This document shows, piece after piece, positions 30,628 to 55,200 of a stretch of DNA of 64,000 nt. This DNA comes from Isoetes taiwanensis (taxonomy: Eukaryota > Streptophyta > Lycopodiopsida > Isoetales > Isoetaceae), in contig JAJEKV010000238.1 in the NCBI GenBank assembly GCA_021234155.1, positions 560,001 to 624,000 of the forward strand. Reading direction: 5' to 3'. The notes under the pieces were generated by a model. The model was given only the letters and a program-made list of their open reading frames with translations. It was not told where the DNA came from and did no database searches. The position numbers and the translations under genes are program-made. Position 1 is the stretch's first letter, and the number at the start of each line of letters is the position of its first letter.

Positions 30628-30662
<35 letters not shown>

Positions 30663-31094: not shown

Positions 31095-31555
31095 CAGTAG
31101 GGCAATAAGTTAAACATTGGGCATAACACTATTTAAGGTGAATGAGTTCCGCCCGGTAAAGCGGAGGCATGTTTTTCCACAATTGGGTCATAAAGCATGG
31201 CCTTCAAATGATGTAGAATAGAAATTCTTTAGCACCAAGCAATAAACAGACTTTTGTATTTTATTATTGTCTAATCAATGATTAAGATAGTAGATAGGAG
31301 GTCTATACGCATGGGGATTTTGGCAAAATTCAAGGGTATAAATAGCGAATTGAAGTAATTATCAAGAAAGGTCGCTGGTTGCACACTTGAGCCGCAAAAC
31401 ACATGAAGCATCAAAATAAGCACCTTCCAAAGATAACATATCAAGCCGGGCAATGCCAACTCATCTTATGAAGTGCCAAAGTGGTGCGCAAAGGCTTGAT
31501 CCCTCAAGGTGGCATGCCTTTATTGAAGCTTCGTCTAGACCATGCCCCGCCGAGC

Positions 31556-31715
31556 ATGGTCTAGTGGCAGGATCTTAAACTATCACACCTGAGGTTACGG
31601 GTTCATACCTAGCCATTATTGGTCTAGTAATGGGGACCTTAAACATTCATTGCCTTGAGGTCACGGGTTCAAGTACAACCAACCGGTCCTGTGGTAGAGA
31701 CCTTAAACCTGCCAT
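31556..31715 (+). repeat. row of three tRNA-like heads (left)
   Basis: Two 62-63-bp modules follow head to tail: GGTCTAGTGGCAGGATCTTA ending GGGTTCATACC, and GGTCTAGTAATGGGGACCTT ending GGGTTCAAGTACAACC. A third, cut short, begins GGTCCTGTGGTAGAGACC. Each full module has an A-box/B-box pair, and the first resembles tRNA-Glu around GTCTAGT and the T-loop GGTTCA. Acceptor stems are absent, so these are retroposon heads and not tRNA genes. The right copy is at 49648-49808. Confidence 0.55.
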
Positions 31716-34119
31716 ATGTAATCACATGCAAAGCAAACTCCTAGCATGTCGTGCATAGGTAGTGGTTTGGCTTCCATGTGCAACTCCCAGCATATCGCGC
31801 CTAGGTAGTGGTTTGGCTTCCATTGATGTAGAATATACTCATGGTGTGATGGCGGATAGAATGACGTCCTTTAATATAAAAAGGATACTAGTACCACCAA
31901 GACTAAGGTGTCAATACAAAATTATTAGGCAAGGATAGGGTAGCCATTTAAGGCTGCAACACAAAATTGTTAAGCAAGGACTGGTTTTTTTCTCTTTCAA
32001 GTAACCCATTAAGATCTCAAACAACCAAATGGGAACTATAACTTATATCGTTAAAAGAAGAATTTTAATGACCATGTGGCATCCAGAAACCAACGCTCAT
32101 ATGATCAGTTAGCCTTCGAAGAAACAGAAAGCTCATTACACAGAGCTAGGCGGACAAGGGTCGGGTCCGTGTTTGGAACATGTTGTATGGTGATCCGCCC
32201 GTATGATAGAATATGCCTTATGGTAGATTACGAAAAGAAAATCCGATAAGGGAGAAGATATTGATAAAAGCAGACCTTTGGAAAAGAGGGACAAAGAAGA
32301 AGATATTGATAAATCGAGACCTAAAAAAGAGGGGTAAGACTTTGGTATGTGGGCGAAGAATGTTAATAACGAGGATTGTTGAATGCTAGAGAAGATAAAC
32401 CGCATTGAGCCATTAAGTACAAGGTAAGTGGAAGACTAATGAGTTAACAAATGCTTTGCTTAAGCGTATGAAGATTACATGTTAAAACGAAATGAAACTC
32501 TTTTTGGTTCAAACAATCATATGCACAAAATTTGTTGTATAGTACTAAGTTCTTTGGCATATATAATGAGTTTCCTTTTTTTTTGAGTTCTCGCTACAAG
32601 CTAATGAATTACTTTTATCTTATGGTGATGCTAGATTTTCTCTTATTTTTCCATCCGCGGTGCAAGTATGCCATGCTTGCTTAGAAATAAAGATGATTTT
32701 TGGTTTGCCGTGGTCATAATGGACATCATATTTTCTGGTGAGTATCTGTTTATCATAGGTCGTACTTCATGGAAGGATTATGGGAGGAACAAATAATGAT
32801 ATTGAAATAACATTTATTTTTTGAATAATGAGTTTTCTATCACCTATATGCGTCCATATTTTTCTACATAGCGGCAGGCACTATTCGCTGTGTTGACGAC
32901 CTTACTTGACCTTCACCATTGACCTGAGTATCTCCATCATATTTTCTTGAGTATTTGCAAGCAAATGCTTGAGTATTTAGTGTAAATATTAACAGGTCTG
33001 TGCAAGCAACAAATAATTGAGTATTATCGCTAGAAATAAAAACAGGAAAGGCAAGTTGCTTGTTTGTTCCAACCTGCACTATAGGCATGCAAAACGAAAC
33101 CCAGATTACACTCACATCATTGTACGTACCATGTCTTGACATATTGGAATGTCTGGATGGATGTGGAGGGAGGGAGGGAGGGAGGGAGGGAGAGATGTGA
33201 TATGGAGCATGCTAGGGGGAGTGATCCAAAAGCAAGGGATTAAGGCAATGGGGTATAAGGATACCAATGGTTACAAGAATTGACAAAAGGGGCAAGATAT
33301 TATATTCAAATATTACAAGCAAAAGAATAGGGCGAAATATCCTTCATGCAACTATATTTACAAAAAAGGGATGATATTTCAAAATAAAAGATAAGGAAAG
33401 TCTCATGCAACTATTTTTGCAAAAAGGGGGACGATTTGAGACCAGAATAGCGTGAAGATTCTTTATTAGGGAAAAAGAGGTTGAACTGCTATTAGAAGGG
33501 GGTTGTCGGCACAGATCAAAATCAGAAAAGATCCCTTTCATCAAATCCGGCACCAGCAAACCGGTCTATGCTTCGCTGCTTCCTATTCCGACTCCAGAGA
33601 TTCGATTCCTGTCTGCTGTGTCCAGATCCGATCCAACTTGCGAGTATCTGACAGCGATTGAGGATCCTGTAAGCGGAGCCTTAATTGCGACCTTCTTTGT
33701 GAAGTCCGAGATTGGTTCTATTTCTTACCATTGGCAGTTGTGATTGAACCCATCCAAACCCAAAGCTGTTGTAGAACGGATTGATCTTGTGCTGAAGGGA
33801 AATAGAATTCCTTTCGCCCTAAATCTCTTGGGAATTACCTTAATCTTTGGATCCGGTTGGGTGGAAACTAGATGCTCCATAGCTTGGTTGTGGAGACCAA
33901 GTACCTTTGTTCTTGAGCAGAGTTTAGCTTATAAGACTCGAGGATTATTTCTTCGCTTTCTATCTATTTAATGTTGGAACAAAGTGGATAACATCTTTAA
34001 GAATCCTTAAAGCATATCAAGATGAAATTGTATTATTACGCCCCTGTGGAGACCGCCAAACCTATAAGACGCCCAAACTAGTACATCATCGGTTATAAAG
34101 CAGATCATCTAATGCATCA

Positions 34120-34453
34120 TTCATAATGCATCCCCCCCCCCCCCCCCCCAATCTCTTCCTCATCCATCTCCTTCACATCCATTGTTTTCATGCACCCTTC
34201 CCTCAGTAGTCTAAAATATCAAATATACAAGCTCTTGTCCGAGTATCTGGGAAATAAAAAAACTCAACAAGGGTGCTAGCTTGCGTACCATGTTTAATGC
34301 GTAAGTCGGCATAAACACGGGTAATAAAGAAGAACATGTGCCTCATCTACCATTGCATATCCTACACGATCTAAGCTCATACATGGGATATCACTCCACC
34401 GCGCCTATTTCAACCCCGAAACCGGTGCAAACTTAATCTCATCCTGCAGATGG
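34120..34453 (-). pseudogene. LINE ORF2 C-terminal fragment (left copy)
   Basis: Homologous to 52208-52539, the C-terminal end of the LINE ORF2 in the right-hand block, including the region coding the zinc-finger-like CRICNG and HVLLYCPGY motifs. Here the cysteine-containing part is damaged by a 14-bp loss near 34349, and the fragment is cut at 34453 where the 345-bp array begins. Confidence 0.8.
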
Positions 34454-36303
34454 AAGGTCCAAGCTAGACTAGTCTTGTCACTAGAATATCATCTTGTACA
34501 CGACTAGCTAGAATATCCTACCACCTCCAAGGGGCCAGTGGAGGACATGTATAGGCTTTTAAGTTCTACCACGTCGGGGATCATCATCGATAACCCCAAG
34601 AAACCAACTCCCAAAGTTAAACATACACGGCCGGGTTTGAACCCCCGACCAAATGCACATTTATTTTGGCATTACTAAGTCTATACCAACTCACCACACA
34701 TCCGTTGGGCAAAACTTTAGCCATACATGCACACTTTGTAGGCATGTGGATACCTCCCTAGCCTTAGGATGTCAGCAGGGTATTTTTGTATTTTTGTTTA
34801 AGGTCCAAGCCAGACTAGTCTTGTCACTAGAATATCATCTTGTACACCCACTAGCTAGAATATCCTACCACCGGCCAAGGCCAAGTGGAGGACATGTATA
34901 GGCTTTTAAGTTCTACCACGCCGGGGGATCATCATCATGATAACCCCAAGAACCAACTCCCAAAGCTAAACATACACCGCCAGGTTGCTTGAACCCCCAC
35001 CAAATGCACATTTATTTTGGCATTACTAGGTCTATACCAACTCACCACACATCCGTTGGGGCAAAACTTTAGCCATACATGCACACTTTGTAGGCGTGAT
35101 ACCTTCTAGCCTTAGGATGTCCTGTATTTTTGTATTTTTTGTTTAAGGTCCAAGCTAGACTAGTCTTGTCACTAGAATATCATCTTGTACACGACTAGCT
35201 AGAATATCCTACCACCGTCAAGGGGCCAGTGGAGGACATGTATAGGCTTTTAAGTTCTACCACGTCGGGGATCATCATCGATAACCCCAGAACCAACTCC
35301 CAAAGCTAAACATACACCGCCAGTTTTTGAACCCCGACCAAATGCACATTTATTTTGGCATTACTAGGTCTATACCAACTCACCACACATCCGTTGGGCA
35401 AAACTTTAGCCATACATGCACACTTTGTAGGCGGGATACCTCCTAGCCTTTAGGATGTCACTGTGTATTTTTGTATTTTTTGTTTAAGGTCCAAGCTAGA
35501 CTAGTCTTGTCACTAGAATATCATCTTGTACACCCACTAGCTAGAATATCCTACCACGGGTCAAGGGGCCAGTGGAGGACATGTATAGGCTTTTAAGTTC
35601 TACCACGCTTGGGATCATCATCGTGATAACCCCAAGAACCAACTCCCAAAGCTAAACATACATCGCCGTGTTTGAACCTCGACCAAATACACATTTATTT
35701 TGGCATTACTAGGTCTATACTAACTCACCACACATCCGTTGGGCAAAACTTTAGCCATACATGCACACTTTGTAGGCGGGGATACCTCCCAGCCTTAGGA
35801 TGTCACTGTGTATTTTTGTATTTTTTGTTTAAGATCCAAGCTAGACTAGTCTTGTCACTAGAATATCATCTTGTACACGCACTAGCTAGAATATCCTACC
35901 ACCGGGCCAAGGGGCCAGTGGAGGACATGTATAGCTTTTAAGTTCTACCACGCTTTGGGATCATCATCGAGATAACCCCAAGAACCAACTCCCAAAGTTA
36001 AACATACACCGCGTGTTTGAACCCCCCACTAAATGCACATTTATTTTGGCATTACTAGGTCTATACCAACTCACCACACATCCGGTTGGGCAAAAAAACT
36101 TTAGCCATACATGCACACTTTGTAGGCTGGATACCTCCTAGCCTTAGGATGTCACAGGTATTTTTGTATTTTTTTGTTTAAGGTCCAAGCTAGACTAGTC
36201 TTGTCACTAGAATATCATCTTGTACACGACTAGCTAGAATATCCTACCACCGGTCAAGGGGCCAAAGTGGAGGACATGTATAGGCTTTTAAGTTCTACCA
36301 CGT
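34454..36303 (-). repeat. 345-bp tandem array, 5 full copies and one partial, tRNA-like
   Basis: Units start with AAGGTCCAAGC at 34454, 34800, 35145, 35486, 35831 and 36180, so the periods are 346, 345, 341, 345 and 349 bp. The sixth stops after about 123 bp at 36303. On the minus strand each unit carries an A-box-like TGGTGAGTTGGTATAGAC and, 45-50 bp on, a B-box-like GGGGTTCAAACCCG. This resembles the head of a tRNA-derived SINE. Differences among units are concentrated at a few sites such as CCACC(N)CAAGG, CACG(N)GGGATC and the B-box flank. The array lies exactly between the truncated LINE and a partial Penelope-like 5' end. Confidence 0.85.
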
Positions 36304-36743
36304 CCTGCATGTCATCTCTGCAATTGTTTTCTTCAAAAAATGCTGACGGCTTCTACATAACTTGCTTTTCTTTTTCTTCCTATACCTGGTTCTAGATTTC
36401 GCAGAAAGGAGGAAATAGCCATACTGACCTTTTGGGGAACAACCCATCTGCTCTTTGCTGGCCGGATGCATTTACTTCCCGCTACCGCCATACCACCCTC
36501 CCTTGCTTTCGCCACTTTAGCTATAAATAAATGCGGTTTTAGGGTTTTTAACAGTTAAGTTTTTGAGACCTTTGACTATGTTTTTCATAACTCCATTTAA
36601 TGGTTAAGAAAACATATTTGGGGTAGCCATATGGGGTTTTAACCTAGACACCTTTGTATTCCATTTTTATCTCTTCATTCTTACAAAGCAAGGAATTAAA
36701 TCCATAATAAACCATTAAGCTTAGGTTTTATGCCATTTATATT
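36303..36743 (-). repeat. partial extra copy of the Penelope-like 5' end
   Basis: It matches 48296-48740: the leader plus the start of exon 1 (MHPASKEQ start codon region, then the KKKKRK basic stretch). It is cut at 36303 by the 345-bp array. In element orientation it lies directly after the 3' end of the complete copy, so the element is flanked by direct repeats about 440 bp long. Penelope-like elements are known for such tandem partial copies (pseudo-LTRs). Confidence 0.8.
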
Positions 36744-36846
36744 ACATACATAAAAAAAATCCTTCCTCCTACCGTAGGTTTGGAATGGACCCCTTTTGTT
36801 TTGATTTTTAGAAAACCTAGAAAAGACACTGTAACTATAGGGAGAG

Positions 36847-36876
36847 TGGACCCCTACTTGTTACAGTAGGGGTCCA
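36847..36876. repeat. 11-bp perfect hairpin in the element 3' region
   Basis: TGGACCCCTAC (36847-36857) and GTAGGGGTCCA (36866-36876) are exact inverted repeats around an 8-nt loop TTGTTACA. It lies about 100 bp past the RT stop. A second short inverted repeat, CCTACCGTAGG, is at 36768-36778. No hammerhead ribozyme core was found here. Confidence 0.85.
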
Positions 36877-39245
36877 TTGCAACCCTATATACCATCTCAA
36901 TTTTTACAGTATTTCTGCATAACTTATTATTCCAATAGCAGATAAAGGAGACAATCGAAATAGTCATACCTTTCAGAAGTCTTTAAGTACTTGCACCAGC
37001 GTGTTGGTGTCATATTTCACTCCTGGAAAATCACTGCATTTTATGTATTTGATAACTCGCCTGGTGATTCCTTTTTTGTCAAAACCATTTTTGACAAAGC
37101 AGCACATTAACTCCTGTATATCTTGAGCTGCCTTAATGGGGCTAGAGTTAATGTATATGAATGGCATAATCTGTGATAGAATGACATTTCTAGCCTGCAT
37201 GTAGGGTCTGCAGCTACATGCATGCACGTACTTTATGGCTACAAAAGGCAAGGTTTCCCTTTTATCATATTTGGTAGTCTGAAATAGACCAGTAACATTA
37301 TCAAAGACCTGAATGGTCATGTTTAAGAAATTGGCTTTGCTACCAGAATATACGTTCGGGGAGGTCTCTGTGTATTTGGTTTCCTCTTTAATGCCCAAAA
37401 CTTCTAGATTGTATATCTGTAATTCCTGATCCGTTCCATCTTTGTCTAGGTACCTTTTTATATGCGGGCAGTTAATGGCCAATAAATCGTCCATGTACCT
37501 ATAAACATGTCTGAATCCTTTGATTACCTGAAATCTGCCTTGTTTGGCAAGGTTTTTAATAAACTCCATTTCATACCAAGCCAGATATATATTGCACCAG
37601 TTTGGGCTACAGGAGAAGCCCATTGGAATACCATTTATCTGTTGCCAAACACCTTTTCCCGTACTAAGAAAACAGTTAGTCAGTAACCAATTGTTAATTT
37701 TGAGAAATCTTTGTAGGCTCATCATACTCCAGCATTTACCTTGAGGTGGTATCTTAAACCATTTGGGTATGAGTTTCCCACTGCTGGTTGTCTTAATCCA
37801 TAACTCGTACCTCTTGTTTTTCCTTTTCATATATTCCCATGTTATATTTCCCACTTTCTCACTGATAGAGCAAACACCGTTATCTCCAAGCAGAGGAATG
37901 CTTTCATAGCATTTGGTGATATCAGCCACAAAAACCTCTTGGATTCCCTTGGGTAGATTCAGGGCAATATCATAGATGGAGTTAATAATCCAGTTTACAT
38001 TCAGCATGTTGGGTACAAAAGTGTTAATACTTGCACAGTAGTCCTTGGATACTTCTGGCCATAATTGTAAGACAGAATTCAGTACTACTGTAACCAATTC
38101 AGCAATTTCAGTGTATATAGTACCATGGGCGTTGGTTATCCACCGGTATTCTTTCTTGTGTGCCTTGAACAGGCCTAAAAGGTATGGTAGCTTTTGGGAT
38201 TCACAGTTGACCAGCCCCATACAATCCCATAAGCCTCTCTGAATGTCTATGCTTAGGGTTTCCTTTTCATGCCCTATCGGCAGAAAATCAGAGCTAGATA
38301 ATCTCAACATAGCCATGTCTCTAATATGTTTTGGACATATAAAGGACGGATTATTGGAAGCCTTATCTACACCGCTAATGTATAGATTTTTGGTCAGCCA
38401 TTCGAAGTTTTTTATGGCCAACTGATCATTTAGAGCAAACTTTACTTGTTTATCCTTACTATAGGCTTCTATAATCTCAGACCTAGCTTGTTCCAGCACT
38501 CCTATAATAACTTGCTCTTTATCCGACTCACTTAAGTCTGGAAATTGGAATTTATGTAGATCAAAAATTGAGCCACAAACTTTTCTAATTTCTGCACTCA
38601 TGTCCTTCCATACAAGCATTCGGTCTGGTATATGGTTCAGGCCTTTCCTGAACTCATTCCTGAGGATTTTATTTCGGACAATTTGAATGTTGGTGGTCCT
38701 GATATGCCCTATATCCTTATCTATAAAACTTTTTAGGTTGGGGTTGGAGCATGGGCAATTAGGCTCATCATCTTGTGCAAACACATAATACGGTTTGTAG
38801 CACAATTCCTTGAGGCTTTCAATATACTTCCAAGCAAACATGGTCTCCTCCATTATTGCATCTCCAGTATCCCCAAAAACCAACTTCATATGTCGCTGCA
38901 CAATTTTTGGTAAGCAAATCTTATCTATAATTTTAGATAAGAAAAAACAATGCACGATCTTCTTCTTGCACTTTTCCCCACTTTCTAAAATGTATAATCT
39001 TCCTTGACAGTCCTTAAGGATTGATCTTGTAACCTGTATACATTAAGTCAGTAAATATTAGATCTTATATTTTCAGTGTTGTTTTTAGTCACCCAGCTCG
39101 ATCCTGGCCACTTTGTGCCTTGTTCTTTGGCTCAAACAAAGAATCAGATATATCCCTTTTTGGCATGGCATGGACTATTGGCATGCCAGCTCATATTGTC
39201 AAATGGATCCCTCTTTCAAAAGGAGGTCCAGACTTAAAGATAGGT

Positions 39246-39367
39246 CTCCTATATTCAGGAAGTATAATATGTCACATATATTCAGGAAGTATAATATGTC
39301 TCCTATATTCAGGAAGCAAAATATGTCACCTATAATAGGTCTCCTATATTCAAGAAGTATATTATGT
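39246..39367. repeat. 27-bp tandem repeat in intron 2 of the Penelope-like element
   Basis: Four full units of CTCCTATATTCAGGAAGTAT plus AATATGT occur, with the second starting CACAT, and a partial unit between the third and fourth. It lies wholly inside the 458-bp intron (39034-39491). Confidence 0.85.
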
Positions 39368-40773
39368 TATTTTCTAGAAAATGCAAAGCTGCACAAAATA
39401 TAGCATAAGACTTTCCCATATAAATATGCTATCAATATCATAATAGAAATGGTCTTTTTAATTTATTTTTTTTAAAAAAAAACAGACGTACCTATTGGTC
39501 ATACTTTAGCTGCTGCACAATTCCATCCGTTGTCTTTATCTTAGGATTGTGTACCATCTTGCTAACCGAGTTGTCTATTGTACCAGGTGTACTCAGTTGT
39601 TCAATAGCCGAGTTCTCAGCTATGCTTGAGCTGCAACCTCCAGGTAGGACAGTGATTCGGGGTGGTGTATATCCCTTCCCAGCTCCACTAGCCATAGTTC
39701 TAGGTTTAGGTTGCTTGTTCTTCCTGTTTTGATTATTGCTATACCCTGTCTCCAATTTGAGCATGAAGGAAACAGGTTTTATGCTTTTCTCACATATTAT
39801 TGCCATTCGAGAGTGTTGGCCTTCCAGCTTTAAATCTGCCCAAGGATCTGCTGCCTGCAGAAAGGTCATGTGGATAAGAGTTTCTCTTATCTCCAAATAT
39901 GATAGATATGCAATTATGTTGTCCTTGATGGTGGTCTTCATGAACTTTCTCATGGAGACCATTTGGGCTACCGTGGACATGTCTGGGAAAACGGATTCCA
40001 GATTATTAAACATGTACCAAATGGCATGGTCCAACCATGTCATGTTGTCTTTGCAAGCATTTCCTCTGATTCTAGGTTCACAGCCACATTTGAAGTATGG
40101 GCAGAAGCTTCTCCACACCCTTTTGAGGTAAAATGTGTCCCTTGGGATGGTTGAGTAGGCCATGTGGCCCTTCTGTCTGATATATATGCAATCGTCCATG
40201 TTGCACTTTTTGTCAAAAAACCGATGATCGATTTTCAGTTTGATCCTTTCTTTGTGTATTATTTTCTCCATCCTTTCAGCAGCTACCTTAGCTCCCCTTT
40301 CCTGCTCTGGAGTGATGTCTCCTAACATTACCCATGCCTCTCGACTGATAGGTGCTAGAGCTCCGAAGTTTTTAGTGCGCCAAATTCCTTGGTTACAGAA
40401 CAAAGAATGGCTCTCTACAAGCCTCTCTGGTATAATGGGGAAAATGTGACAATTATGGAGTGTGAAGCAGAACTCCTTGTCTTCACCACTACCACCAGCA
40501 GTATTTTTATCCCCCATGGATTTTTTATCCTGCTCTGATAGTAGGCTATCCCCAAATGGGTCCTCTTTAGTCTCATCATTGCTGCTCAGTTTTCCTTTAT
40601 CCATATGCGCCTTGCTCAGACTAGGCCTTTTTATTTTGTTTGCTTTTTCCAGGGCTGGAACCCCTATAAAGAACTGTGTCCTGGCCTTGTCTTCTTCCAT
40701 AGTCCAGTTGTATACCTTAGTGGGTAGTTCTTCGTAGATTTCTTCTACTAACTTCACTGCTTCATCCCAATCC

Positions 40774-41307
40774 TGTTAGAATCAGAGCTTGGGATTCGAA
40801 CCCAAGTATGCCAAGACTCTGTCTCCTTCAAACCCCTCCCGCACCTATATTTGCATACACGCACCTGTATCTGCACTCAGCCACATATTTTCTATGACAA
40901 TCAGTCATATATATATTTTCTCATCAACCTGGATATATCCACTTGTCAAATCGTGCATGCCCTTCATATAGAAAGTTTTTCACCTTGCCTAAATAATAGG
41001 ATGCCCCCCTTTGTCCTTATCTTCTAGTCGTCGTTGACTTTGACCCGTTGACGATCAACCCAAAACCCTAAGTGGCGGGCGGGGGTGTCGTGTGTTTCTA
41101 GCGAGCCCAAAGAACACCGGGTAGGGTGTGCCCGCCACCTTTGACTTTGACTTTGACTTTGACCCTCGCCTTTGCTTCTCATAGGTCTTCCCCATTCAAG
41201 CTGCTTAACTTTGAATAACATGACACCATTTAACAACTCTAATCTCGCCCGCTTTGCTTCTCATAGATTAGAATATCACATGACACATAATTTTGTCATT
41301 TCCAACA
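40774..41307 (-). repeat. 3' LTR of the copia element
   Basis: 534 bp, same length as the other LTR. It contains a direct TTTGACTTTGAC repeat (about 41140-41163). Differences from the 5' LTR lie mainly at CAG/CTG/CCG-type sites. Confidence 0.95.
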
Positions 41308-41316
41308 TTCCCCTTC
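41308..41316 (-). other. polypurine tract
   Basis: GAAGGGGAA on the minus strand directly abuts the 3' LTR, the expected place for plus-strand DNA priming. Confidence 0.75.
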
Positions 41317-41349
41317 ATGTGATATTCCCCTGTCATCACATTGTAACAA

Positions 41350-44300
41350 TTTCCTTATTTCACGGAATCGGATAAAGGTAGAGCCTTTGTAAGAATATCC
41401 GCTCTTTGATCATTTGTACTAACATAGGTCAAATGCACTTGATTTCTTTTGACCATATCTCCGATAAAATGAACTTCCATTTCAATGTGTTTTGACCTTT
41501 CGATTGCAAAACTGGATTTTTTTGTCATGGCAATACAACTAGTATTATCACAATAAATGATTGTTGGTCCTCTTTGAGCAAATCCAAATTACGCCATAAG
41601 CCTTCTTTCCCAAATAAGTTCCTTAGTCAATGAGGGCTGCCGAGTTGTACTTTCACAAAGACTAGATAAAGCAATCTTTGCTTTGCTTCTTGCACTTCAA
41701 GCAAATGGGGCTCCACCTAATAAAACAACATATCCCCGAAGTTGATTTTCGTTTGTCTAAATCTCCTCCCCAATCAAGCATCACAATAAGCCCCCCGCAA
41801 TTGTAAGCTGGTTTCATTAAATACTATACCAAAATGCATTGTACCTTTTAAGTATTTGAGGATCCTTTTGTTTGCAATCCGGTGTCCTTTACCAGCCCTG
41901 TCATTGTACCTATCGAGAATATTAAGCGCAAATGCAATGTCCGGCCTAGTACAATTGGCTACATAGGACAAACAACCAATCAAACTTCTGTAAGGTATTT
42001 TCTCCATTTGTTTGCTTTCAGCTTCTGTTTTTGGACTCATATCTGCAGAGATTCTGTGACCAGGAACCATAGGAGTATATGCCATATTGCAATCTTCCAT
42101 ATGAAATTTCTTCAACATGTTTTGAATATGCCCTTGTTGACTCAAAGCTAATATCTTGTGATTTACGTCCCTGTAAACATCTATGCCCGTAAACCTCTTT
42201 AACTCTCAAGATCACTCATTTGGAATCGTTTCCTTAAGATATCTTTGCAATGATTTAGTACTTGAGTTCCCTTTGATATCATAATATTGTCATCAACATA
42301 TAAAGCAATAATGCTCCAGGCATCTCCCATTTTGAACCTATAGATATTACCATCATAATTGAGCTTCTCAAAACCTTGTTCTACAAGATATCCATCCATA
42401 CATTTATACCATTCCCTAGGAGATTGTTTAAGACCATAAACTGCTCTATTCAACTTCCAAATTTTTCCTTTTTCCTCTTCAAATCCAAAAGTGTGTCTTA
42501 AATAAATTTCCTCCTCTAACTTAGCATTCAAGAATCGTACTTACATCCATATGATGGATTTCAAGGTCACAAGCATTAGCAATAGCTAATAACATTCTCA
42601 AACTATTTATCTTTACCAATGGTGAGAATGTTTCATCAAAATCTTCTCCTTTTTTCGTGTAAAGCCTTGTGCAACAAGTCCGGCTTTAAATTTCTTTTTG
42701 TATTTTTGTCTACTCATGGTTTTATTCTATAGATCCACTTACTTCCAACTATATTCTTATCGGAAGGAATACCCACCATCAGTATAAGTGTTTATTCTTT
42801 TGAATGCTCTCATTTCTTCTTCCATAGCACATTTCCAGTTCTTTCCATTCACATCTTGAGCGCCTCCATATAATTTTGTGGAATCTTGTCTGTTTCAAGT
42901 ATCAAAATGTCAAAATCTGATATTAATTTCTCCTACCCGAGATCTAAGTCTTTTACTTTTTCCAAGTTCGGTTCTACCATGAGACTCTAAATCATGTTTG
43001 GCTTCTTACGCCAACATTTGAGCTTCGTCGTTCGGGTTTTCTTTTTGGTCTATCAATTTTATCCCGCCTCTTGGTGTTCAATCTCTTGCTCAACACCTGA
43101 TTCCACGGCTCAACAACATTACTTGGAATCATTTTCGACTCACTATCGAGTCACTCAAATCTACCTGCTCCAATCCTTGAGTTTTTTTTTCTTCTTCACT
43201 TATTGACTGATTTGTTTCCTCAATACTATCTTTCCTTTCACTTTCACATGGATCTTGATGATTTATCTTAGGAATTTTCCTATAAAATTCGTTTTCATTG
43301 AAGACCACATCTCTACTTACTATAATTTTTCTTCTAGCGGGGTCATATAATCTGAATGCTTTTGAGTTAGAATCATACCCTACTAGATAAGATACGTATG
43401 CTCTATCATCCAACTTTTTTCCTCGGTTCTTCAGAACATGTACAAAGCATAAACACCCATATGCTTTTAATCTATCATAAGAAGGTGACTTACGGACCAA
43501 AGCATTTCTGGAATTGCACCTTTAATACTTGATGAAGGTAACAAGTTTTGAATGTAGACAAATTTGTCTTCTGACTTCATCCCATAAATAATTTGGTAAA
43601 CCGGAATACTTCAACATGGATCTCCAAAGATCAAGCACGGTTCTATTTTTCCTTTTCGCAACTCCATTTTGTTGTGGTGAGTATCCGCATGTCAATTGCC
43701 TCTTGATTCCCCTGTTTACACAAAAGCTTTAAATTCATCAGAGATATATTCACCTCCCCTGTCGACCTTATGCACTTTATCTTTCTTCCGGTTTCTAGCT
43801 TCGGTTTCAATTGAATAAATAACTTCAAAGCATCACTAGCTTGGTCTTTTTGTTTTCAAAATATAACACTTGGTTTTTCTCGCTGAAATCATCAATAAAG
43901 CTCATGAAATATTTATGCCCACTCAAACTAGTAACATTTATAGGACCACATAAATGTATGTACCAAATCCAAAATGCCCTTTGCTCTTTTGTGTGACCTT
44001 TTAAATGGCAATCTTGATTGCTTTCCAAGTTGGCGACCTCCACATAAAAACTTTTCATTTTGTACCTTGGCGGATATTAATCCCTTTTCCTCAAGCCTTT
44101 TAATTATTGCACATTTTACATGACATAATCTGTTATGCCATACTTTCACATCGAATATTCCACAAGATTAATTTCATGAAGATGCTCCATATTCAATCCA
44201 AAAGATTACCAACTCTTTTGCCAATAAACTTTAATTCACCATTAAGAAACACTTTACAATGGATCTGTTCAAACAAAGACTTTATATCCCAAATCCACCG

Positions 44301-45600
44301 GATGGCATACGGATATGAGATTTCTAACAAGATCAAGGGCACACACAAAACATCTCTCAATTTTACAATTTTGCCATTTAAGTCAAACAACTCTAAAACT
44401 CAAGATCTTCTATTTTCTTCAAACCCCCATCACCAAGTTGCACCGTCCTTCTTTCTTTTCCCACTCCTTAAGCATATGCAAATCACACATCACACTTTTT
44501 CTCGCTCCTGAATCTATAACAACAAATTGGTTATTGCTTTTCCTTGGAAACTCAAACATTACAAGTTAAATTCTTCCTTACCTCCAAGGTGTCATCCTCA
44601 AGTTCACCTTCACTACTATCTTGTTTTTCTACCACATTAATACTTGAGCCTCCTTTGAATTTTCCCTTGCCCCCGCCACCTCTATAAGTTCCAAAATCTC
44701 CCTCGACCTCTTCCTTTTTTTAATGCTTGGGCAATCAGGAAGCAAAATGACCTTTGCCTTCATAATTGAAACATCTAAATTCCTTCTCACTATTGTTTGG
44801 ACACTCACTCTTTAGGTGACCAAATTGATTACATGCATAACAAGGTCCTACTTTTCCTCTTGAAAAACCACCTCTTTTAGTCTTACACGCATACAAGATC
44901 TCTCGAGGACTGATGAGCTTCCCGAGTAATAGTAGACTGTTCAAATTCTCGTATGTATCATTCGATAGCATGCTCCTTGGAAGTGGCTACATTTACGAGT
45001 AAAGTTGCCAAGTGACTATTATGAGATCTTGCTCTTGCCAAAGCTAGTATTTGATAATTGTTTCATTCAAGATATTTCCAGCTCCCTCAAGATCCGCAAT
45101 AATGGAATCAAATCTCTCCAAAAAGTCGGTCAAGTTATCTTTCTCAAACAATTTCATCTTCCTTAACTGTTTTTTTCTAGCACATCTATTTGTGAAGAAC
45201 TTTTTGTTCATAGTGCTTTATCAAATAATCCCACATTTCCTTAGGCTTCATGCCTCGAAGCTTCGAGTTTTAAAGGCGGCGCTTACCTACACATGATTAT
45301 GGCCTGGGCCTCCATAATCTTAGCTTCATCTTTCTGCTCGAACTCGGAGAAGTTGCCCTTCCAAGAGACACACCTTCACTGAAGTTCCCCCGCACTGGAT
45401 TGAGCATTACTACTACTAGCGGCGGGACTTGAATCACTCGAGCTAGTTGCACCCCTACTTGGACTACCATCAAACAAATACCACAATTTTTCAAACTCCA
45501 AGTCTGACTCTAATACTCTCCTTCCAGATTTGAAATCCTCCATCTCCTTTAAAAACTTCAATAGAGTTCAATAGATTTGCCCCGAACGGTTGTCATTATC
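41350..45600 (-). pseudogene. copia gag-pol, broken
   Basis: Minus-strand pieces in order: Gag start MTTVRGKSIEL (about 45593); zinc knuckle CYACNQFGHLKSEC (about 44800-44845); protease active site DSGA (44503-44514); pre-integrase VWHNRLCHVKC (about 44120-44145); integrase CGPINVTSLSGHKYFMSFID (about 43900-43960) and SPQQNGVAKRKNRT, where the catalytic Glu is replaced by Lys (codon 43654-43656); RT with VYGLKQSPREWYK and YVDD (42289-42300); then SLIGCLSYVANCTRPDIAFA and a decayed RNase H. The pieces lie in different frames, so no polyprotein can be made. Confidence 0.92.
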
Positions 45601-45619
45601 ACAGGCGGGGATTTAGTTA

Positions 45620-45631
45620 GCTCGATACCAA
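45620..45631 (-). other. tRNA primer-binding site
   Basis: Next to the 5' LTR the minus strand reads TTGGTATCGAGC. The standard copia site for initiator Met-tRNA is TGGTATCAGAGC, so one A of CAGAG appears missing. The same CAG-to-CG change occurs between the two LTR copies in AATCAGAGC/AATCGAGC, which suggests a consensus error. Confidence 0.8.
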
Positions 45632-46165
45632 TGTTAGAATCGAGCTTGGGATTCGAACCCAAGTATGCCAAGACTGTCTCCTTCAAACCCCTCCCCACCT
45701 ATATTTGCATACACGCACTGTAGATATGCGCACTCACCACATATTTTCTATGACAATGGCCATATATATATTTTCTCATCAACTTTGGATATATCCACTT
45801 GTCAAATCGTGCATGCCCTTCATATAGAAAGTTTTTCAACTTGCCTAAATAATAGGATGCCCCATTGTCCTTATCTTCTAGTCTAGCCGTTGACTTTGAC
45901 CCGTTGACCGGTCAACCCAAAACCCTAAGTGGCGGGCGGGGGTGTCGTGGTGTTTCTAGCGAGCCCAAAGAACACCCGGGTAGGGTGTGCCCGCCACCTT
46001 TGACTTTGACTTTGACTTTGACCTACTGCCACTGCTTCTCATAGGTCTTCCCCATTCAACTGCTTAACTTTGAATAACATGACACCATTTAACAACTCTA
46101 ATCTACTGCCACTGCTTCTCATAGATTAGAATATCACATGACACATAATTTTGTCATTTCCAACA
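45632..46165 (-). repeat. 5' LTR of the copia element
   Basis: 534 bp, TGTTAGAA to TTCCAACA as read on the plus strand. Near its U5 end the minus strand carries the T-arm-like GGGTTCGAATCCCAAGCTC, and the last bases can pair with the adjacent primer-binding site. Confidence 0.95.
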
Positions 46166-48736
46166 AATCCATACCAGCCTTATTTAGTTTTGGTATTAAT
46201 TTAAGCCAGTTACTGAATCCTAGATGGCTGATTGCTGATAACTGGTCGGGTTTTCTCAGCATTTCCTTTTCTATCAGCAATGCATGTACCATGGGATTTT
46301 TGATGCAGCATAAGAGTGTTTGGACTGCGTAGCTTGGACATGAGATTTTGCTAACAGCATACCCTATGGGTCCAAGGTCCTTATTCCAAGTTGGTGGCAG
46401 AAACTCCACCTGTGCTTGTATTTCTTCATCTTCCTGAAATATCATTTAGATTTCTCAATATAGTTGGAGAATAAAAAGTATTGCTCTTACTGTTATCAAC
46501 AGATAAAATGCAGCACTGATAAGACCAATGCAACGAAATTTCTAAAAAAAACCCGGAGTCAGCTAGTCTAGTCATCAGACCTACTAGCCAATCATACTAC
46601 CTTAGTCAATCCTTCAGTAGTTTTATCGTTCCGTACAATAATTGAGCTCATTAAGGACGGTGCATTTTACCTTGATTACCAAGTCTACTGACTTAAAAAA
46701 TATTTACCTTCTCTACACATTAGAGATCAGATTATTGAAACCACTATGTTATCTTTTGTGGCCTAAAGACCATGATTGAATCTTGCACATCACAATGCAC
46801 TTATAACCCTTAGTTTGTAAGTTATCCCTAGGCTCCATTAAGGTACCTTTAACTAAGTAGATATTTTCTTTAGATACAGCTATTTCTTTTTATGCAGGGA
46901 AACAGCAATAGAAGAGATAAAAGAGGATATATCTTTCATAGCCTTAAAAAATCCTTTTTCTCCTTCATTGCTATATCAGTTTCCTTCTTAGATACAAGAA
47001 ACAGAATATAAGGCTATTTTCTAGCCATATCTCCATGATTTTTTACTTATATTTGGTTGTCTCTATATCTGCCCTTTACTTTTCAGCCCTGTGATATCTA
47101 TTTCAGCATAGAGTTTTACCTGTACATTCCATCTATGTTGTTAAACTACTGAAGTACTTTCAGCCTAACAATGCCTCCCAAAGCACTGCTCGAACCATAT
47201 CCAAAAAGGGATTAAACTGTCATTTAATTATATGGAAAAAACATAGTCAACAGTAATAGATATATAGATCCAAAAACAAACGAGTTTTTTGCAGCCTCAT
47301 ACATATTTTTTTGACCTGCAATATGCTTTGTATTCTGTGGACACAGAGTAAAATCAGCAAAATACTTTTGTGTCTCTATACTCATAACTTACAGTTTATG
47401 TAACTAGAAGAGTACTAGTTTTTTTTGGGGAAAAACTGGAACTATAACAAAAATACCATAAGTCTTTAAAAAGAATTTTTTTTTGCTTCCTTAAGAAGGC
47501 GTCCACTTGACTGCACCAGCCTGCACTACTTGGTATTGAGAGTTTTTTTTGCACTATTCTTGAGCTTGTAATACTGATCCACACATCCTTCTGAGCTAGA
47601 ACACTTCATAACAGCAAAAAACAGCACATTGGGGAAAGAAAAACCATGTACCTGCAGCCAACCATGCAAACATTAGCGATATACTTGGTATTGATGCAAG
47701 GGCCAGAAGGTACGTTTGGTTTTTCTTGGCTTATCGCCCTTTACCAAATGTACCATTTTTGCCCTTGATTAGTAGTAGCTGTTCAAAGAATGCATATATC
47801 AAAAGCTCGGAAAATCAAACAAATACCATATCTGTTACCTTAGCAGATATGTGTCCTTTTATAAGACCATATTTTACTATTTTCTTCAATCCAGATGAAG
47901 TATTTTTAAACTAAAACTTCCAAAAGTTAGTCTAAAATAACCTGTAAATCTTCTTCTTCAGAGGAAACTTCATCGCCAAGTTGGGTTTCAGGTACAAACG
48001 AATCAGCAGCTCCTCTGTAGGATCCAGCTGCTCTTTTATTGAAACCACCACCTCTTTTGGTTACATAACCGTCACTATATCCCCTTCTGGAATCAAATCC
48101 CCTACCACTACCTCTTCTCTCCATATCTAAAGCTTCCAATCTCACAGAATTTTTACACCATAGAATTTCCCTATCAGTTTCCCAAGTCGGCTCTTCTTCT
48201 TCTTCAGCACTACTATAATCTGATAGGCTCTGAGACGAACTCATCTTCCTTATGGTATACGTTTTACCCGGGAAAAACCTATGCCTTAAAGACCGACTGC
48301 ATGTCAGCTCTGCAATTGTTTTCTTCAAAAAATGCTGACGGCTTCTACATAACTTCCTTTTCTTTTTCTTCCTATACCTGGTTCTAGATTTCGCAGAAAG
48401 GAGGAAATAGCCATACTGACCTTTTGGGGAACAACCCATCTGCTCTTTGCTGGCCGGATGCATTTACTTCCGGCGGCCTGCCATACCACCTCCTTGCTCC
48501 GCCACTTTAGCTATACGAAATGCTTTTAGGGTTTTTTTAACAGTTAAGTTTTTGAGACCTTTGACTAAGTTTTTCATAACTCCATTTAATGGTTAAGAAA
48601 ACATATTTGGGGTAGCCATATGGGGTTTTAACCTAGACACCTTTGTATTCCATTTTTATCTCTTCATTCTTACAAAGCAAGGAATTAAATCCATAATAAA
48701 CCATTAAGCTTAGGTTTTATGCCATTTATATTACAT

Positions 48737-48774
<38 letters not shown>

Positions 48775-48775
<1 letters not shown>

Positions 48776-49077
48776 ATAGATTCAAGATAAAAAATAATTA
48801 CATTAGCTCACTGGGTATATTGGTTAAAGTATTCTTATTAGGACATTGAGTTATTTTGGTAGAGGTTCGAGCCCCCGTCTTAGGCAACGCCATATAGAGG
48901 TTCGGCATTCCCTCAAAGCCTTAGGCGAAATCGTATTTCATATTTCAAAATCATTGGCGCCTCCAATCATAAATGATTATAAGCGAAACGAGAGGTGCTC
49001 ACAGGCCCCAAGATACGATCTGGGTCGTAGGATCGATGAATCCGACGATTGTGGTAGTCCAGGGTGCACCTCGTTTA
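48775..49077 (+). repeat. tRNA-derived SINE-like unit (right)
   Basis: Copy of 30662-30977 with the same A-box and B-box elements (CACTGGGTATATTGGTTAAA, AGAGGTTCGAGCCCC). Confidence 0.55.
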
Positions 49078-49647
49078 GAATATGTAGCAAAATAACAGGG
49101 GTTCCAGGGGGATTTGATATAGATGTAAAAAATAACAATTCTTGAAACCATAGACCATATATCCCTAACACAATTGAATGGGTTGTTAACAGGGCAATAA
49201 GTTAAACATTGGGCATAACACTATTTAAGGTGAATGAGTTCCGGCCTGGTAAACGGAGGCATGTTTTTCCACAATTGGGTCATAGCAGCATGGCCTTCAA
49301 ATGATGTAGAATAGAAATTCTTTAGCACCAAGCAATAACAGACTTTTGTATTTTATTATTGTCTAATCAATGATTAAGATAGTAGATAGGAGGTCTACTT
49401 CTGCATGGGGATTTTGGCAAAATTCAAGGGTATAAATAGCGCAATTGAAGTAATTATCAAGAAAGGTCAGTGGTTGCACACTTGAGCGTAAAACACATGA
49501 AGCATCAAAATAAGCACCTTCCAAAGATAACATATCAAGCTGGCAATGCCAACTCATCTTATGAAGTGCCAAAGTGGTGCGCAAAGGCTTGGATCCCTCA
49601 AGGTGGCATGCCTTTATTGGCTTCGTCTAGACCATGCCCGTCAGAGC

Positions 49648-49808
49648 ATGGTCTAGTGGCAGGATCTTAAACTATCACACCTGAGGTTACGGGTTCATAC
49701 CTAGCCATTATTGGTCTAGTAATGGGGACCTTAAACATTCATTGCCTTGAGGTCACGGGTTCAAGTACAACCAACCGGTCCTGTGGTAGAGACCTTAAAC
49801 CTGCCATA
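49648..49808 (+). repeat. row of three tRNA-like heads (right)
   Basis: Copy of 31556-31715. Sequence identity is essentially complete across the three modules, and differences begin again just after, where TACTCGATAATC replaces TAATC. Confidence 0.55.
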
Positions 49809-52207
49809 TGTACTCGATAATCACATGCAAAGCAAACTCCTAGCATGTCGTGCATAGGTAGTGGTTTGGCTTCCATGTGCAACTCCCAGCATATCGCGCC
49901 TAGGTAGTGGTTTGGCTTCCATTGATGTAGAATATACTCATGGTGTGATGGCGGATAGAATGACGTCCTTTAATATAAAAAGGATACTAGTACCACCAAG
50001 ACTAAGGTGTCAATACAAAATTATTAGGCAAGGATAGGGTAGCCATTTAAGGCTGCAACACAAAATTGTTAAGCAAGGACTGGTTTTTTTCTCTTTCAAG
50101 TAACCCATTAAGATCTCAAACAACCAAATGGGAACTATAACTTATATCGTTAAAAGAAGAATTTTAATGACCATGTGGCATCCAGAAACCAACGCTCATA
50201 TGATCAGTTAGCCTTCGAAGAAACAGAAAGCTCATTACACAGAGCTAGGCGGACAAGGGTCGGGTCCGTGTTTGGAACATGTTGTATGGTGATCTGGCCT
50301 GTATGATAGAATATGCCTTATGGTAGATTACAGAAAGAAAATCCGATAAGGGAGAAGATATTGATAAACAGAGACACTGGAAAAGAGGGACAAAGAAGAA
50401 GATATTGATAAATCGAGACTGAAAAAGAGAGGTAAGACTTTGGTATGTGGAGCGAAGAATGTGCTGAAACGAGGATTGTTGAATGCTAGAGAAGATGCAA
50501 CTGCATTGAGCCATTAAGTACAAGGTAAGTGGAAGACGAATGAGTTAACAAATGCTTTGCTTAACTGTATGAAGATTACATGTTAAACAGAAATGAAACT
50601 CTTTTTGGTTCAAACAATCATATGCACAAAATTTGTTGTATAGTACTAAGTTCTTTGGCATATATAATGAGTTTCCTTTTTTTTGAGTTCTGCTACAAGC
50701 TAATGAATTACTTTATCTTATGGTGATGCTAGATTTTCTCTTATTCTTTCCATCTGTGTGCAAGTATGCCATGCTTGCTTAGAAATAAAGATGATTTTTG
50801 GTTTGCCAGGGTCATAATGGACATCATATTTTCTGGTGAGTATCTGTTTATCATAGGTCGTACTTCATGGAAGGATTATGGGAGGAACAAATAATGATAT
50901 TGAAATAACATTTATTTTTTGAATAATGAGTTTTCTATCACCTATATGCGTCCATATTTTTCTACATAGCGGCAGGCACTATTCGCTGTGTTGACGACCT
51001 TACTTGACCTTCACCATTGACCTGAGTATCTCCATCATATTTTCTTGAGTATTTGCAAGCAAATGCTTGAGTATTTAGTGTAAATATTAACAGGTCTGTG
51101 CAAGCAACAAATAATTGAGTATTATCGCTAGAAATAAAAACAGGAAAGGCAAGTTGCTTGTTTGTTCCAACCTGCACTATAGGCATGCAAAACGAAACCC
51201 AGATTACACTCACATCATTGTACGTACCATGTCTTGACATATTGGAATGTCTGGATGGATGTGGAGGGAGGGAGGGAGGGAGGGAGAGATGTGATATGGA
51301 GCATGCTAGGGGGAGTGATCCAAAAGCAAGGGATTAAGGCAATGGGGTATAAGGATACCAATGGTTACAAGAATTGACAAAAGGGGCAAGATATTATATT
51401 CAAATATTACAAGCAAAAGAATAGGGCGAAATATCCTTCATGCAACTATATTTACAAAAAAGGGATGATATTTCAAAATAAAAGATAAGGAAAGTCTCAT
51501 GCAACTATTTTTGCAAAAAGGGGGACGATTTGAGACCAGAATAGCGTGAAGATTCTTTATTAGGGAAAAAGAGGTTGAACTGCTATTAGAAGGGGGTTGT
51601 CACGCAGATCAAAATCGAAAAAAGATCCCTTTCATCAAATCCGCACCAAACAAACCCGGTCTATGCTTATTTGCTTCCTATTCGACTCGTAGATTCGATT
51701 CGCATGCTGCGGTCCAGATCCGATCCAACTTAAAGTATCGACAAATGATTGAGGATCCTGTAAGCGGAGCCTTAATTGCGACCTTCTTTGTGAAGTCCGA
51801 GATTGGTTCTATTTCTTACCATTGGCAGTTGTGATTGAACCCATCCAAACCCAAAGCTGTTGTAGAACGGATTGATCTTGTGCTGAAGGGAAATAGAATT
51901 CCTTTCGCCCTAAATCTCTTGGGAATTACCTTAATCTTTGGATCCGGTTGGGTGGAAACTAGATGCTCCATAGCTTGGTTGTGGAGACCAAGTACCTTTG
52001 TTCTTGAGCAGAGCTGTTATAAGACTCTGAGGATTATTTCTTCTGCTTTCTATCTATTTAACTGTTGAACAAAGTGGATAACATCTTTAAGAATCCTTAA
52101 AGCATATCAAGATGAAATTGTATTATTACGTCTGTGAGACCGCCAAACCTATAAGACGTCCAAACTAGTACATCATCAGTTATAAAGCAGATCATCTAAT
52201 GCATCAT

Positions 52208-55200
52208 TCATAATGCATCCCCCACTCCCCCAATCTCTTCCTCATCCATCTCCTTCACATCCATTGTTTTCATGCACCCTTCCCTGTAGTCTAAAATATC
52301 AAATATACAAGCTCTTGTCTGAGTATCTGGGAAATAAAAAAACTCAACAAGGGTGCTAGCTTGCGTACCATGTTTAATGCGTAAGTCGGCATAACCTGGG
52401 CAATAAAGAAGAACATGTGCCTCATCTTCAAGTGCCCTACCATTGCATATCCTACACGATCTAAGCTCATACAGGATATCACTCCACCTGCCTATTTCAA
52501 CCCCGAGCCTGTGCAAACTTAATCTCATCCTGCAGATGGCATGTCTATATTTAACAGAAATATTTTCTTGCGAGTACTTGCCCCCTTGTAGCATAGGGTT
52601 GATATGATTCCTGTAAAATTTCTTTCTTAACTGCACCTTCCCTCCAACACACACGGTTGACATTCACCATGACTCAAGCCGGTATATCATCTTTATAAAC
52701 TTCCAATAGAACTTTATGTACATAGTGGAGAGTCTAGCAAAGTGCTTCTACTTCCAAAGAGAACATTCCACCAGGAGCATATCATACGAAGTCTGCATTT
52801 TTGTTCCAAGCTCAATGCAAAAAAATCTTTTCTGTATTTTTTCAATTTTCTTCCATCTATCTGAGGCCAAACCTGGCCCCCAGACCTCACACTGCACCAT
52901 TGATTGCATTAATGCAATGTATAAATGCTTCTTTATGTTAAAATTCCATATATCCAATTTCCTATACTTACGGTACGTAGCATATACGGCCTCAAGCCCA
53001 CCATCTACTTTTTGCTCAGCTGCTATGCTCCAATTCTGGCTTTTGTCTACAAGAAGGCCAAGATATTTATAAATATCCACAATATCAATGGGCTTTCCTT
53101 TGTAGGACACCGTTACATGGTCTACATTGGTAGCCCCAAACACTATTATCTTGGTCTTTAGTCATATTAACTCGCATGCTTTTTTGTATCACAGAAGTCA
53201 TTCAAGACATCCAAATGCCTTTGTAAGCCTGTCGCACTCCTAGATAGCAGAACAACATCATCTGCATACAACAATTGTAGAATGTATCCATTTAGGGGCG
53301 TTCCATCACCACCATTCTGAATTATCCATTCTTCCAATTGATCTGTGAAAAGACTAAAAAGTGTAGGTGATAGTGGGCAGCCTTGTTTAACGCCCATGTT
53401 GCTTTCAACGAATATCTCACTCGTGTGGGAAAAGAGAGCTGGACTAGTACTTTATCATAAAGTTTCATCACTGCTTGTCTATATGCTCGAGGGACCCCAA
53501 GAGCTATCATTCTGTCCCACAAGTGGACTCTACCAACCATATCAAAGGTTTTCGAAAAATCAACAAACAATGCATACAAAGGTTTCCTCTTACCAACTAC
53601 AGAATCCATCATGGCTCCCATGGTGACTAGATGGTCGATTTTACACTTTTTGACCCTAAAACCTGCTTGCCCTATGGCCCTCACATTATTATCATTCGGT
53701 AGTTATTCGGATTAGCTGCATCACCTGCCTTATGGAGAGGAACCGCCCTGTTGATTTGCCATATGCGGGGGAAGCCTTCACGCAAAACAGCATTGAACAG
53801 TTTCACTAAAACCTCTGACACTCTGTCACCTATCCATTTAAACATTTCAACTATAAGCCCGTCGGCATCTACAGCCTTGCGATTAGATAGCTTTCACAAC
53901 CCCCCATATATGTCCTCCAAAACAAACATAAACTATCATCATATGTGTCATCCATTTTCGTGTCCACCCGTGGTACATAATACAACTGTTTAATGTGTCG
54001 CATCAAAACATCAACTTCTATCAATGTATTTTTTTTTTGAGGTGGTTTTAGCCTATTCCAAAACTTTTTTGGGTATGCAAGCAACTCCATTACTATTTGC
54101 TCATGTTTCTTATGCAAATAGCTTCTCCTCTTTCCCTTAATCATTTTGATATATTCTTTCCTTGCTTTAGCCTTTGCATCTCCCCTTGCTAGTTTAAACT
54201 TTTTTCTTTGCATCCTACATTCATGGTCAAACCATCCATTACAAGGCATCCCCAATCTTTGCCTGTTTGAAATGAAGCATGTATTAGCAGATTCAAGAAC
54301 CATCTGAGTGAGAGTATAACTAAGGTCTACCGCCCTATGTGGCCAAGAGATGGTAGAAGCCATTTTTTCACAACAGTCCTTGTACCCTTGAGATTTGTCA
54401 TATCTCATAACAAGTTTAAGGGATGCTCGTGGCGCCTCAACATGTGCAGGCATACCTACAATACAGACGACAAGAAACAAAGGCTCAAGGTCTGATTCAA
54501 TATTATCTTTTCCAATAGCAAAGCTAACCACTTGTTGGGCAAAGGAAGGTTTTGCTAAAACATGATCTACCACACTTGTTTCTCTACATGTATATGACCC
54601 TGTGTCTAGGAACTTGTTCGTACCATTGTAAATTACCATATTTAAGCCACTGCAAAGTGACAGTACATGGTGCCCCTGCGGAGAAGACCACCGTATTTTG
54701 TCAGCTGAATTTCTACCCCAACCAGTTTCTGCCAATTCGCTATCATCTAACATTTCCAGCCATTCTGGATCACCTTTGGTACTAACCATGGCAGCTTGTC
54801 TTTGTGAGGTCCGTCCATTAAAATCACCCATTAATAAAACATCACATGTGTCCCCAAATGAAAAAACATCTTGCTCCAACTGTGCAAATGGGTTATCTCT
54901 ATCCAATTCCCCCGAATTATACATTGGAGAGCCTCTAGGTGGGAAATAGCACCCAGGAATGTAAATGTTATCAGATTGCCCAGGCACGACAATCCAGATA
55001 GTCTAAAGAGATGCCTTTGCATATAAAACTGTAACTAGATGCACAAACTCATTCCTAACAAAACATGCAATGCCACCATAGCTTTTGTACCTCCACCCTT
55101 TGGGAGACCACACAGAGTGTACTAACTTAAATAATATCAGGCAGACCTAGACCTGATTCTTCATGCTCACCTGTTTCAAGAAAAAAAATCAATATCTGCA

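Follow-up and report, generated by a model that had tools for sequence, protein, structure and literature searches.

To our knowledge, it is an open question by what means endonuclease-deficient Penelope-like elements can move away from telomeres. The question is raised here by a copy of what appears to be such an element, located on the minus strand of a 64,000-nucleotide (nt) stretch of the Isoetes taiwanensis genome (contig JAJEKV010000238.1, positions 560,001 to 624,000; C268:560001-624000 in our contig numbering). We refer to this whole stretch as the window, and the genome searched for related copies comprised 1.658 Gb in 1,110 contigs. As the probable answer we propose that the window copy belongs to a large plant family of Penelope-like retroelements that (i) lack a GIY-YIG endonuclease, (ii) produce two proteins by splice choice, and (iii) prime on A/T tracts by means of two conserved sites of eight T residues (T8), termed P and Q.

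The three-exon arrangement of the window copy recurs across copies and is not a product of chance. Genome searches with exon 3, which encodes the reverse transcriptase (RT), gave 69 matches at 67 scored of 4,830 candidates, that is, at least 66 RT copies besides the window. At least 101 matches were obtained for exon 2 (99 scored of 3,312 candidates) and at least 150 for exon 1 (150 scored of 673 candidates). All three counts are lower bounds, and exon 1 sits in a repeat that may be present twice per element. The set of 57 copies analyzed below consists of the window copy, 16 copies fetched at about 10 kb, and the stretch from exon 2 to exon 3 of 40 more. Exon 2 is followed by the RT exon in all 16 fetched copies, and exon 1 was located in 13 of them. 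Relatives free of the copia element that interrupts exon 2 in the window read uninterrupted through this exon, e.g., L001 with 513 open codons.

Sequence past the RT exon repeats the 5' part of the element in 13 of the 16 fetched copies. In all four copies that were read through both ends, these direct repeats are 1.9-2.7 kb long and have conserved T8 sites as their boundaries: they start at P, about 160-235 nt past the RT stop codon, and extend to Q, which is located in intron 1, some 100 nt or more upstream of exon 2. The 3' end of the element lies at Q in these four copies and in all seven copies for which its location was predicted from repeat arithmetic before fetching. For each prediction 501 bases were taken, and all seven stretches had a T-run close to their midpoint together with the Q motif, which is slightly altered in L002 and L010. 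Among further pieces, 41 of 44 received a flag for P, of which that of L081 proved incorrect when inspected, and 21 of 27 received one for Q. The terminal-repeat pieces of one copy, L014, are in a rearranged order.

The outer ends of the element are T-runs. Runs of 14-34 T were observed at 12 of the 13 5' ends found (median 24; this count leaves out L001, L005, L006, and L009) and runs of 10-26 T at all 11 3' ends (median 15). The internal runs are shorter, with 7-13 T at P (15 copies) and 7-9 T at Q (16 copies). An association with telomeres was rejected because telomeric repeats were not found: the window and the 16 loci of about 10 kb have no run of two or more TTTAGGG or TTAGGG units on either strand.

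In the two cases in which the target was resolved, L007 and L011, the target run is the A-tail of another inserted element. In L011, the element with its T-runs is contained in a 51-bp tailed insertion flanked by a 12-bp duplication, CTTTAAACTTAG, and the insertion site is a copia reading frame that becomes continuous once the flanks are joined. The 3' flank of L007 belongs to a dispersed repeat. All 31 other places listed for this flank start at positions 432-457 of the query, at the beginning of its T-run (positions 451-470), and the matches to the 5' flank, at seven other places, end at the same point. The L007 composite, formed by the element and a 2,052-bp piece of the repeat, is bounded by TCATATTTTGATTT, which is present as a single copy in the paralogous empty sites L142 and L143. 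This dispersed repeat looks like an A-tailed long interspersed nuclear element (LINE) in antisense orientation. Judged by eye, the 3' flanks of L008, L013, and L015 resemble ends of tailed elements. L013 and L060 have a 1.67-kb direct repeat (98.4% identity) around the Penelope-like insertion, perhaps the long terminal repeats (LTRs) of a host element.

Alternatively, the terminal T-runs might not come from the target but be made by the element itself, if its T8 ends are extended by slippage or by addition without a template. The T8 at both element ends could seed such growth, and the 3' runs are shorter than the 5' runs; however, the internal P and Q sites of the same copies have remained short, the L007 run is the tail of a repeat that starts there at all its other listed places, the L007 insert lies between the copies of a target duplication, the sequence of which occurs once in each of two empty sites, and the L011 run is part of a tailed insertion with a duplication of its own. 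We consider it improbable that the runs are element-made.

The 3' untranslated region (3'UTR) upstream of site P contains a covarying RNA structure of three helices with a pseudoknot, which was drawn up from the window sequence. It was tested on 55 sequences picked by their T8 site, namely, the window, 14 fetched copies, and 40 of 44 new 3'UTR pieces, after exclusion of three pieces without a P flag and the wrongly flagged L081. Standard pairs occupy 90.6% of the cells in these sequences, compared with 37-49% for slid versions of the whole structure, and in the pseudoknot helix the paired proportion is 94.2%, six of the seven pairs of this helix being altered on both sides. In 500 shuffles, the mean proportion of paired cells was 87.6% and no shuffle was as high as the real value; the covariation score was 0.163 against a shuffled 0.113 (0 of 500 as high), 10 pairs were changed on both sides against 5.5 (1 of 500 as high), and 26 further pair types were observed against 22.8 (23 of 500 as high), figures that are not probabilities because the copies are related. 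No hammerhead ribozyme, which is a frequent though not general component of Penelope-like pseudo-LTRs, was matched at the Rfam gathering score in eight sources (the window and seven copies). Other Rfam matches in the 3'UTR were weak and at chance level (best E-value 1.5), and around Q none was found up to an E-value of 5.

The coding capacity of the element differs from that given in the preliminary description of this locus, which had joined three exons of 174, 515, and 687 codons into a single uninterrupted protein. The exon 1 donor, the exon 2 acceptor, and the RT exon acceptor are all where that description had placed them. Exon 1, however, has about 101 codons when counted from a conserved ATG at codon 74 of the earlier frame, and the count for exon 2 appears to include a stop codon. 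In the window, the exon 2 frame ends with YDQ-TAG, and the donor GTACGT follows immediately. The exon 2 tail is present in 53 of the 57 copies (none was found in four), and a clear donor is located 0-9 nt past the first in-frame stop in 45 of the 53, in a scan from 3 nt upstream to 14 nt downstream of the stop; the stop is TAG in 25 of these copies, TGA in 10, and TAA in 10. An open scan of the 120 nt upstream of the stop revealed a similar-scoring GT in 5 of the 53 copies, including the window; such a donor is in the frame-keeping phase in two (L002 and L016), and in one copy of the 53 an upstream GT equals or exceeds the donor past the stop. Since the stops at the end of exon 2 are conserved, the single three-exon protein is not supported.

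Splice phases were compared across the same copies. Counted after the stop, the exon 2 donor is in phase 0 in 29 copies, phase 1 in 12, and phase 2 in 4. The RT exon acceptor, taken as the C/T-AG closest to the expected position, is in phase 0 in 52 of the 53 copies resolved among the 57 (four are unresolved), and the exon 1 donor CAG/GT is in phase 0 in all 14 copies with exon 1 in either terminal repeat (in 3 of 17 copies no exon 1 was found). If exons 2 and 3 formed one frame, the exon 2 donor phase would be kept and the stop lost. If exon 1 is joined to either exon, agreement is required only between its donor and the acceptors of exons 2 and 3, and this latter pattern is the one observed. 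The first near-invariant methionine of the RT exon is at position 49 with 13 invariant residues ahead of it; therefore, ribosomes must reach the RT frame from an exon further upstream. The possibility raised in the preliminary description that related copies would reveal the exons as separate genes is borne out in part: exons 2 and 3 form separate reading frames, most likely with exon 1 in common. Donors and acceptors are kept across the genomic copies, which appear to retain their introns.

Alternatively, exon 3 might be expressed from its own transcript, with a first exon or a start codon in intron 2 or further upstream and without involvement of exon 1. Nothing direct speaks for such a transcript, plausible as it is given that the 5' end of exon 3 has no start codon; it is unlikely in view of intron 2, which is short (0.22-0.66 kb from the stop to the exon 3 acceptor) and conserved only at its ends, and of the phase-0 donor of exon 1, which fits the phase-0 acceptor of exon 3. 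The least likely of the alternatives is a polyprotein of all three joined exons, with RT produced by readthrough of the exon 2 stop or by ribosome re-initiation, which would stay in frame in the window and in 29 of the 45 copies but is opposed by donors out of phase 0 in the other 16, by the use of all three kinds of stop 0-9 nt before the donor, and by the lack of an early conserved ATG for re-initiation in exon 3.

Exon 1 is RG-rich, and exon 2 encodes a conserved protein of about 514 amino acids (aa), 13 copies of which are 50-75% identical to the first sequence. The cysteine cluster C312-x4-C317-x-C319-x8-C328 is invariant in the exon 2 alignment, and we can only guess that it forms a metal site. 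No Pfam family was assigned to exon 2 (best E-value 0.049 in single members, 13 of which were scanned, and 0.11 in the window copy), and its profile matched PDB entries only at E-values of 2.9 or higher. RVT_1 was matched in exon 3 of all 13 members scanned (best E-value 7.8e-07). Against PDB, phmmer found nothing for the RT up to an E-value of 10, and the three matches of the RT profile (E-values 0.18-0.48) were not to RTs. Comparisons of this profile with single sequences were weak: host telomerase RT (TERT) was matched over 55 columns in the motif B region with an E-value of 0.0028 and a probability of 11%, a gypsy RT with an E-value of 0.31, and a copia piece with an E-value of 0.21. Scans of IMG/VR with two patterns yielded no confirmed relative of the RT or of exon 2. 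AlphaFold2 models from single window sequences had mean pLDDT scores of 30.4 and 35.5 and were not used. Median ratios of nonsynonymous to synonymous substitution rates (dN/dS), based on unsaturated pairs only, were 0.12 for exon 1 (1 pair), 0.15 for exon 2 (1 pair), 0.20 for codons 1-48 of exon 3 (4 pairs), and 0.10 for exon 3 (3 pairs).

The GIY-YIG domain was absent at an E-value of 0.1 or below from 13 exon 2 and 13 exon 3 members in Pfam scans, and at an E-value of 1 or below from the four pieces of the window copy, including exon 1. The at least 121 GIY-YIG matches in the genome (150 scored of 263 candidates; longest open frame 200 aa) included none that shares one long frame with an RT. 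In calling the element Penelope-like, with retained introns, no GIY-YIG domain, and two uncharacterized upstream coding regions, the preliminary description agrees with the anatomy and the Pfam results. The host has a telomerase RT gene of its own (L144:2120-4281; Telomerase_RBD, E-value 1.1e-31); therefore, the elements of this family need not replace telomerase.

We propose the following scheme of propagation. Transcription would begin in the terminal repeat, from a putative promoter. Exon 1 (about 101 aa, RG-rich) would be spliced to exon 2, which has its own stop, to give a protein of about 615 aa or, by alternative splicing past exon 2, to exon 3 to give an RT of about 790 aa. The unspliced head-to-tail RNA would be the template. 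Reverse transcription may start at Q in intron 1 of the downstream unit, with the U8 paired to an A-tract of the target, and the A8 copied from site P may pair with the other, T-rich end of the target and thereby prime the second strand. The pseudoknot fold may have a role in RT binding.

Several observations weigh against this scheme. On the protein side, splicing is deduced from genomic sequence only; the exon 2 donor has phase 0 in 29 of 45 copies, by itself compatible with stop readthrough in those; 8 of 53 copies have no clear exon 2 donor; and the RT exon acceptor of L017 is out of phase. The window RT scores 25.6 bits, below the Pfam gathering cut-off of 29.6, and dN/dS was measurable in very few pairs because most pairs are saturated. 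At the ends, L012 has only 7 T at its 5' end, 6 of 11 3' flanks have no obvious tailed element, and empty sites were found for two copies only. Finally, RNAalifold, which was not supplied with the structure and considers nested folds only, kept five of the seven pseudoknot pairs but neither the hairpin nor the outer stem, and paired the 3' arm of the hairpin elsewhere.

A more speculative and, in our opinion, rather doubtful extension of the proposed scheme is that this endonuclease-less lineage has swapped the telomere address of its relatives for poly(A). The fold and U8 would then prime on A-tails, among them the tails of LINE-like elements in the course of insertion, and the element would parasitise the insertion intermediate of these other retroelements rather than cut DNA; the RT would be accompanied by a second, unrelated conserved protein, perhaps a nucleic-acid-binding or cutting factor, both made through mutually exclusive downstream exons. 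With many copies, precise ends, a covarying RNA fold, and recognizable A-tail targets, the question of non-telomeric movement becomes testable. If two proteins are indeed produced via alternative downstream exons while introns are kept through the RNA stage, the choice of splicing would be tied directly to retroelement expression.

The features of the window copy are listed in the table. Its exon 1 donor, CAG/GTT, directly follows position 47942 on the minus strand, and the remnants of its terminal-repeat pair (36305-36759 and 48297-48748) are 95.9% identical. A copia insertion with a 5-bp duplication had been described in exon 2, and GGATT is indeed found on both of its sides. The description of the element as recently intact is weak: the two copia LTRs (40774-41307 and 45632-46165) are 92.7% identical, and a partial copy in contig C1092 (L057) has the 5' (right-hand) insertion junction in common with the window copy at only 85.5% identity. 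The element is bracketed by a 3.8-kb direct repeat (30632-34459 and 48745-52545, 95.4% identity), which was considered as a giant target duplication and rejected as such because the same right-hand junction is present in C1092. The tandem array that truncates the 3' terminal repeat spans positions 34454-36302 with 5.4 copies of a 345-bp unit. This unit is arrayed at many places in the genome, several of them with adjacent arrays on opposite strands, resembling a foldback element. Broken LINE-like frames with endonuclease-like and RT-like pieces, as judged by eye, are located in the flank at positions 52208-54987 on the minus strand.

Table. Parts of the Penelope-like element and of its copia insertion, in window coordinates
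Feature	Position	Strand	Remarks
A-run of 34 bases at the 5' end of the element	48741-48774		T-run on the strand of the element
5' terminal repeat (pseudo-LTR), from the T-run to site Q	46544-48740	-	Contains the 5' UTR, exon 1, and the greater part of intron 1; extent assumed by comparison with the four copies in which both ends were reached
Exon 1, coding part	47942-48244	-	About 101 codons, RG-rich; from conserved ATG (48244) to donor CAG/GT, phase 0
Site Q in intron 1	46544-46551	-	GGG-T8-AGA; corresponds to the 3' end of complete copies
Exon 2, part 1	46166-46433	-	Acceptor TTTCAG precedes 46433; stops at the copia insertion (GGATT, 46170-46166)
Copia-type LTR element within exon 2	40774-46165	-	GGATT on either side
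Exon 2, part 2	39492-40768	-	Final TAG (39494-39492) adjoins donor GTACGT
Exon 3, reverse transcriptase	36973-39033	-	686 codons and stop; acceptor ACAG directly upstream
3'UTR RNA structure	36829-36888	-	Outer stem, hairpin, and pseudoknot
Site P	36752-36759	-	GGAGGAAGGA-T8; start of the terminal repeat
3' terminal repeat	36305-36751	-	Truncated within exon 1 by the array of 345-bp units

Endonuclease-deficient Penelope-like elements have been reported in Selaginella, Pinus, and Picea (PMC9033089), and those of Selaginella have been reported as telomere-associated (PMC12477314); the plant elements without endonuclease go back to Gladyshev & Arkhipova 2007 and Lin et al. 2016, here taken from these two reviews. 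No paper on alternative exons, T-run or A-tail ends, or the pseudoknot was among the matches listed in searches on lycophytes, alternative splicing, target preference, and Selaginella, which does not establish absence from print. Going by the review descriptions, the endonuclease-deficient plant elements and the Isoetes family have in common a plant Penelope-like RT without GIY-YIG; in contrast to the telomere-associated elements of Selaginella, the outer ends are here T-runs, and neither the window nor the 16 loci yielded a telomeric repeat. Athena elements and Terminons of bdelloid rotifers (PMC6431247) share with the Isoetes family a 3' RNA fold and, after it, a short stretch able to base-pair with the end of a target, as well as head-to-tail arrays, but their stretch is the telomeric complement, whereas here it is U8, and by Rfam there is no hammerhead here. 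Poseidon PAc of Anolis carolinensis (PMC11167929) has tandem units, pseudo-LTRs, AT-rich targets, and an internal start of reverse transcription, for which we propose a counterpart here; it is described with GIY-YIG, a hammerhead, and one open reading frame for RT and endonuclease, whereas the repeat of 1.9-2.7 kb described here takes in exon 1 and the greater part of intron 1. The canonical Penelope elements found in Adineta vaga (PMC3846280) also have pseudo-LTRs and, in one family, an intron kept within the open reading frame, and differ from the Isoetes family, which has no GIY-YIG and two separate downstream coding exons. Endonuclease-deficient plant elements are already known, and the features described here look new.

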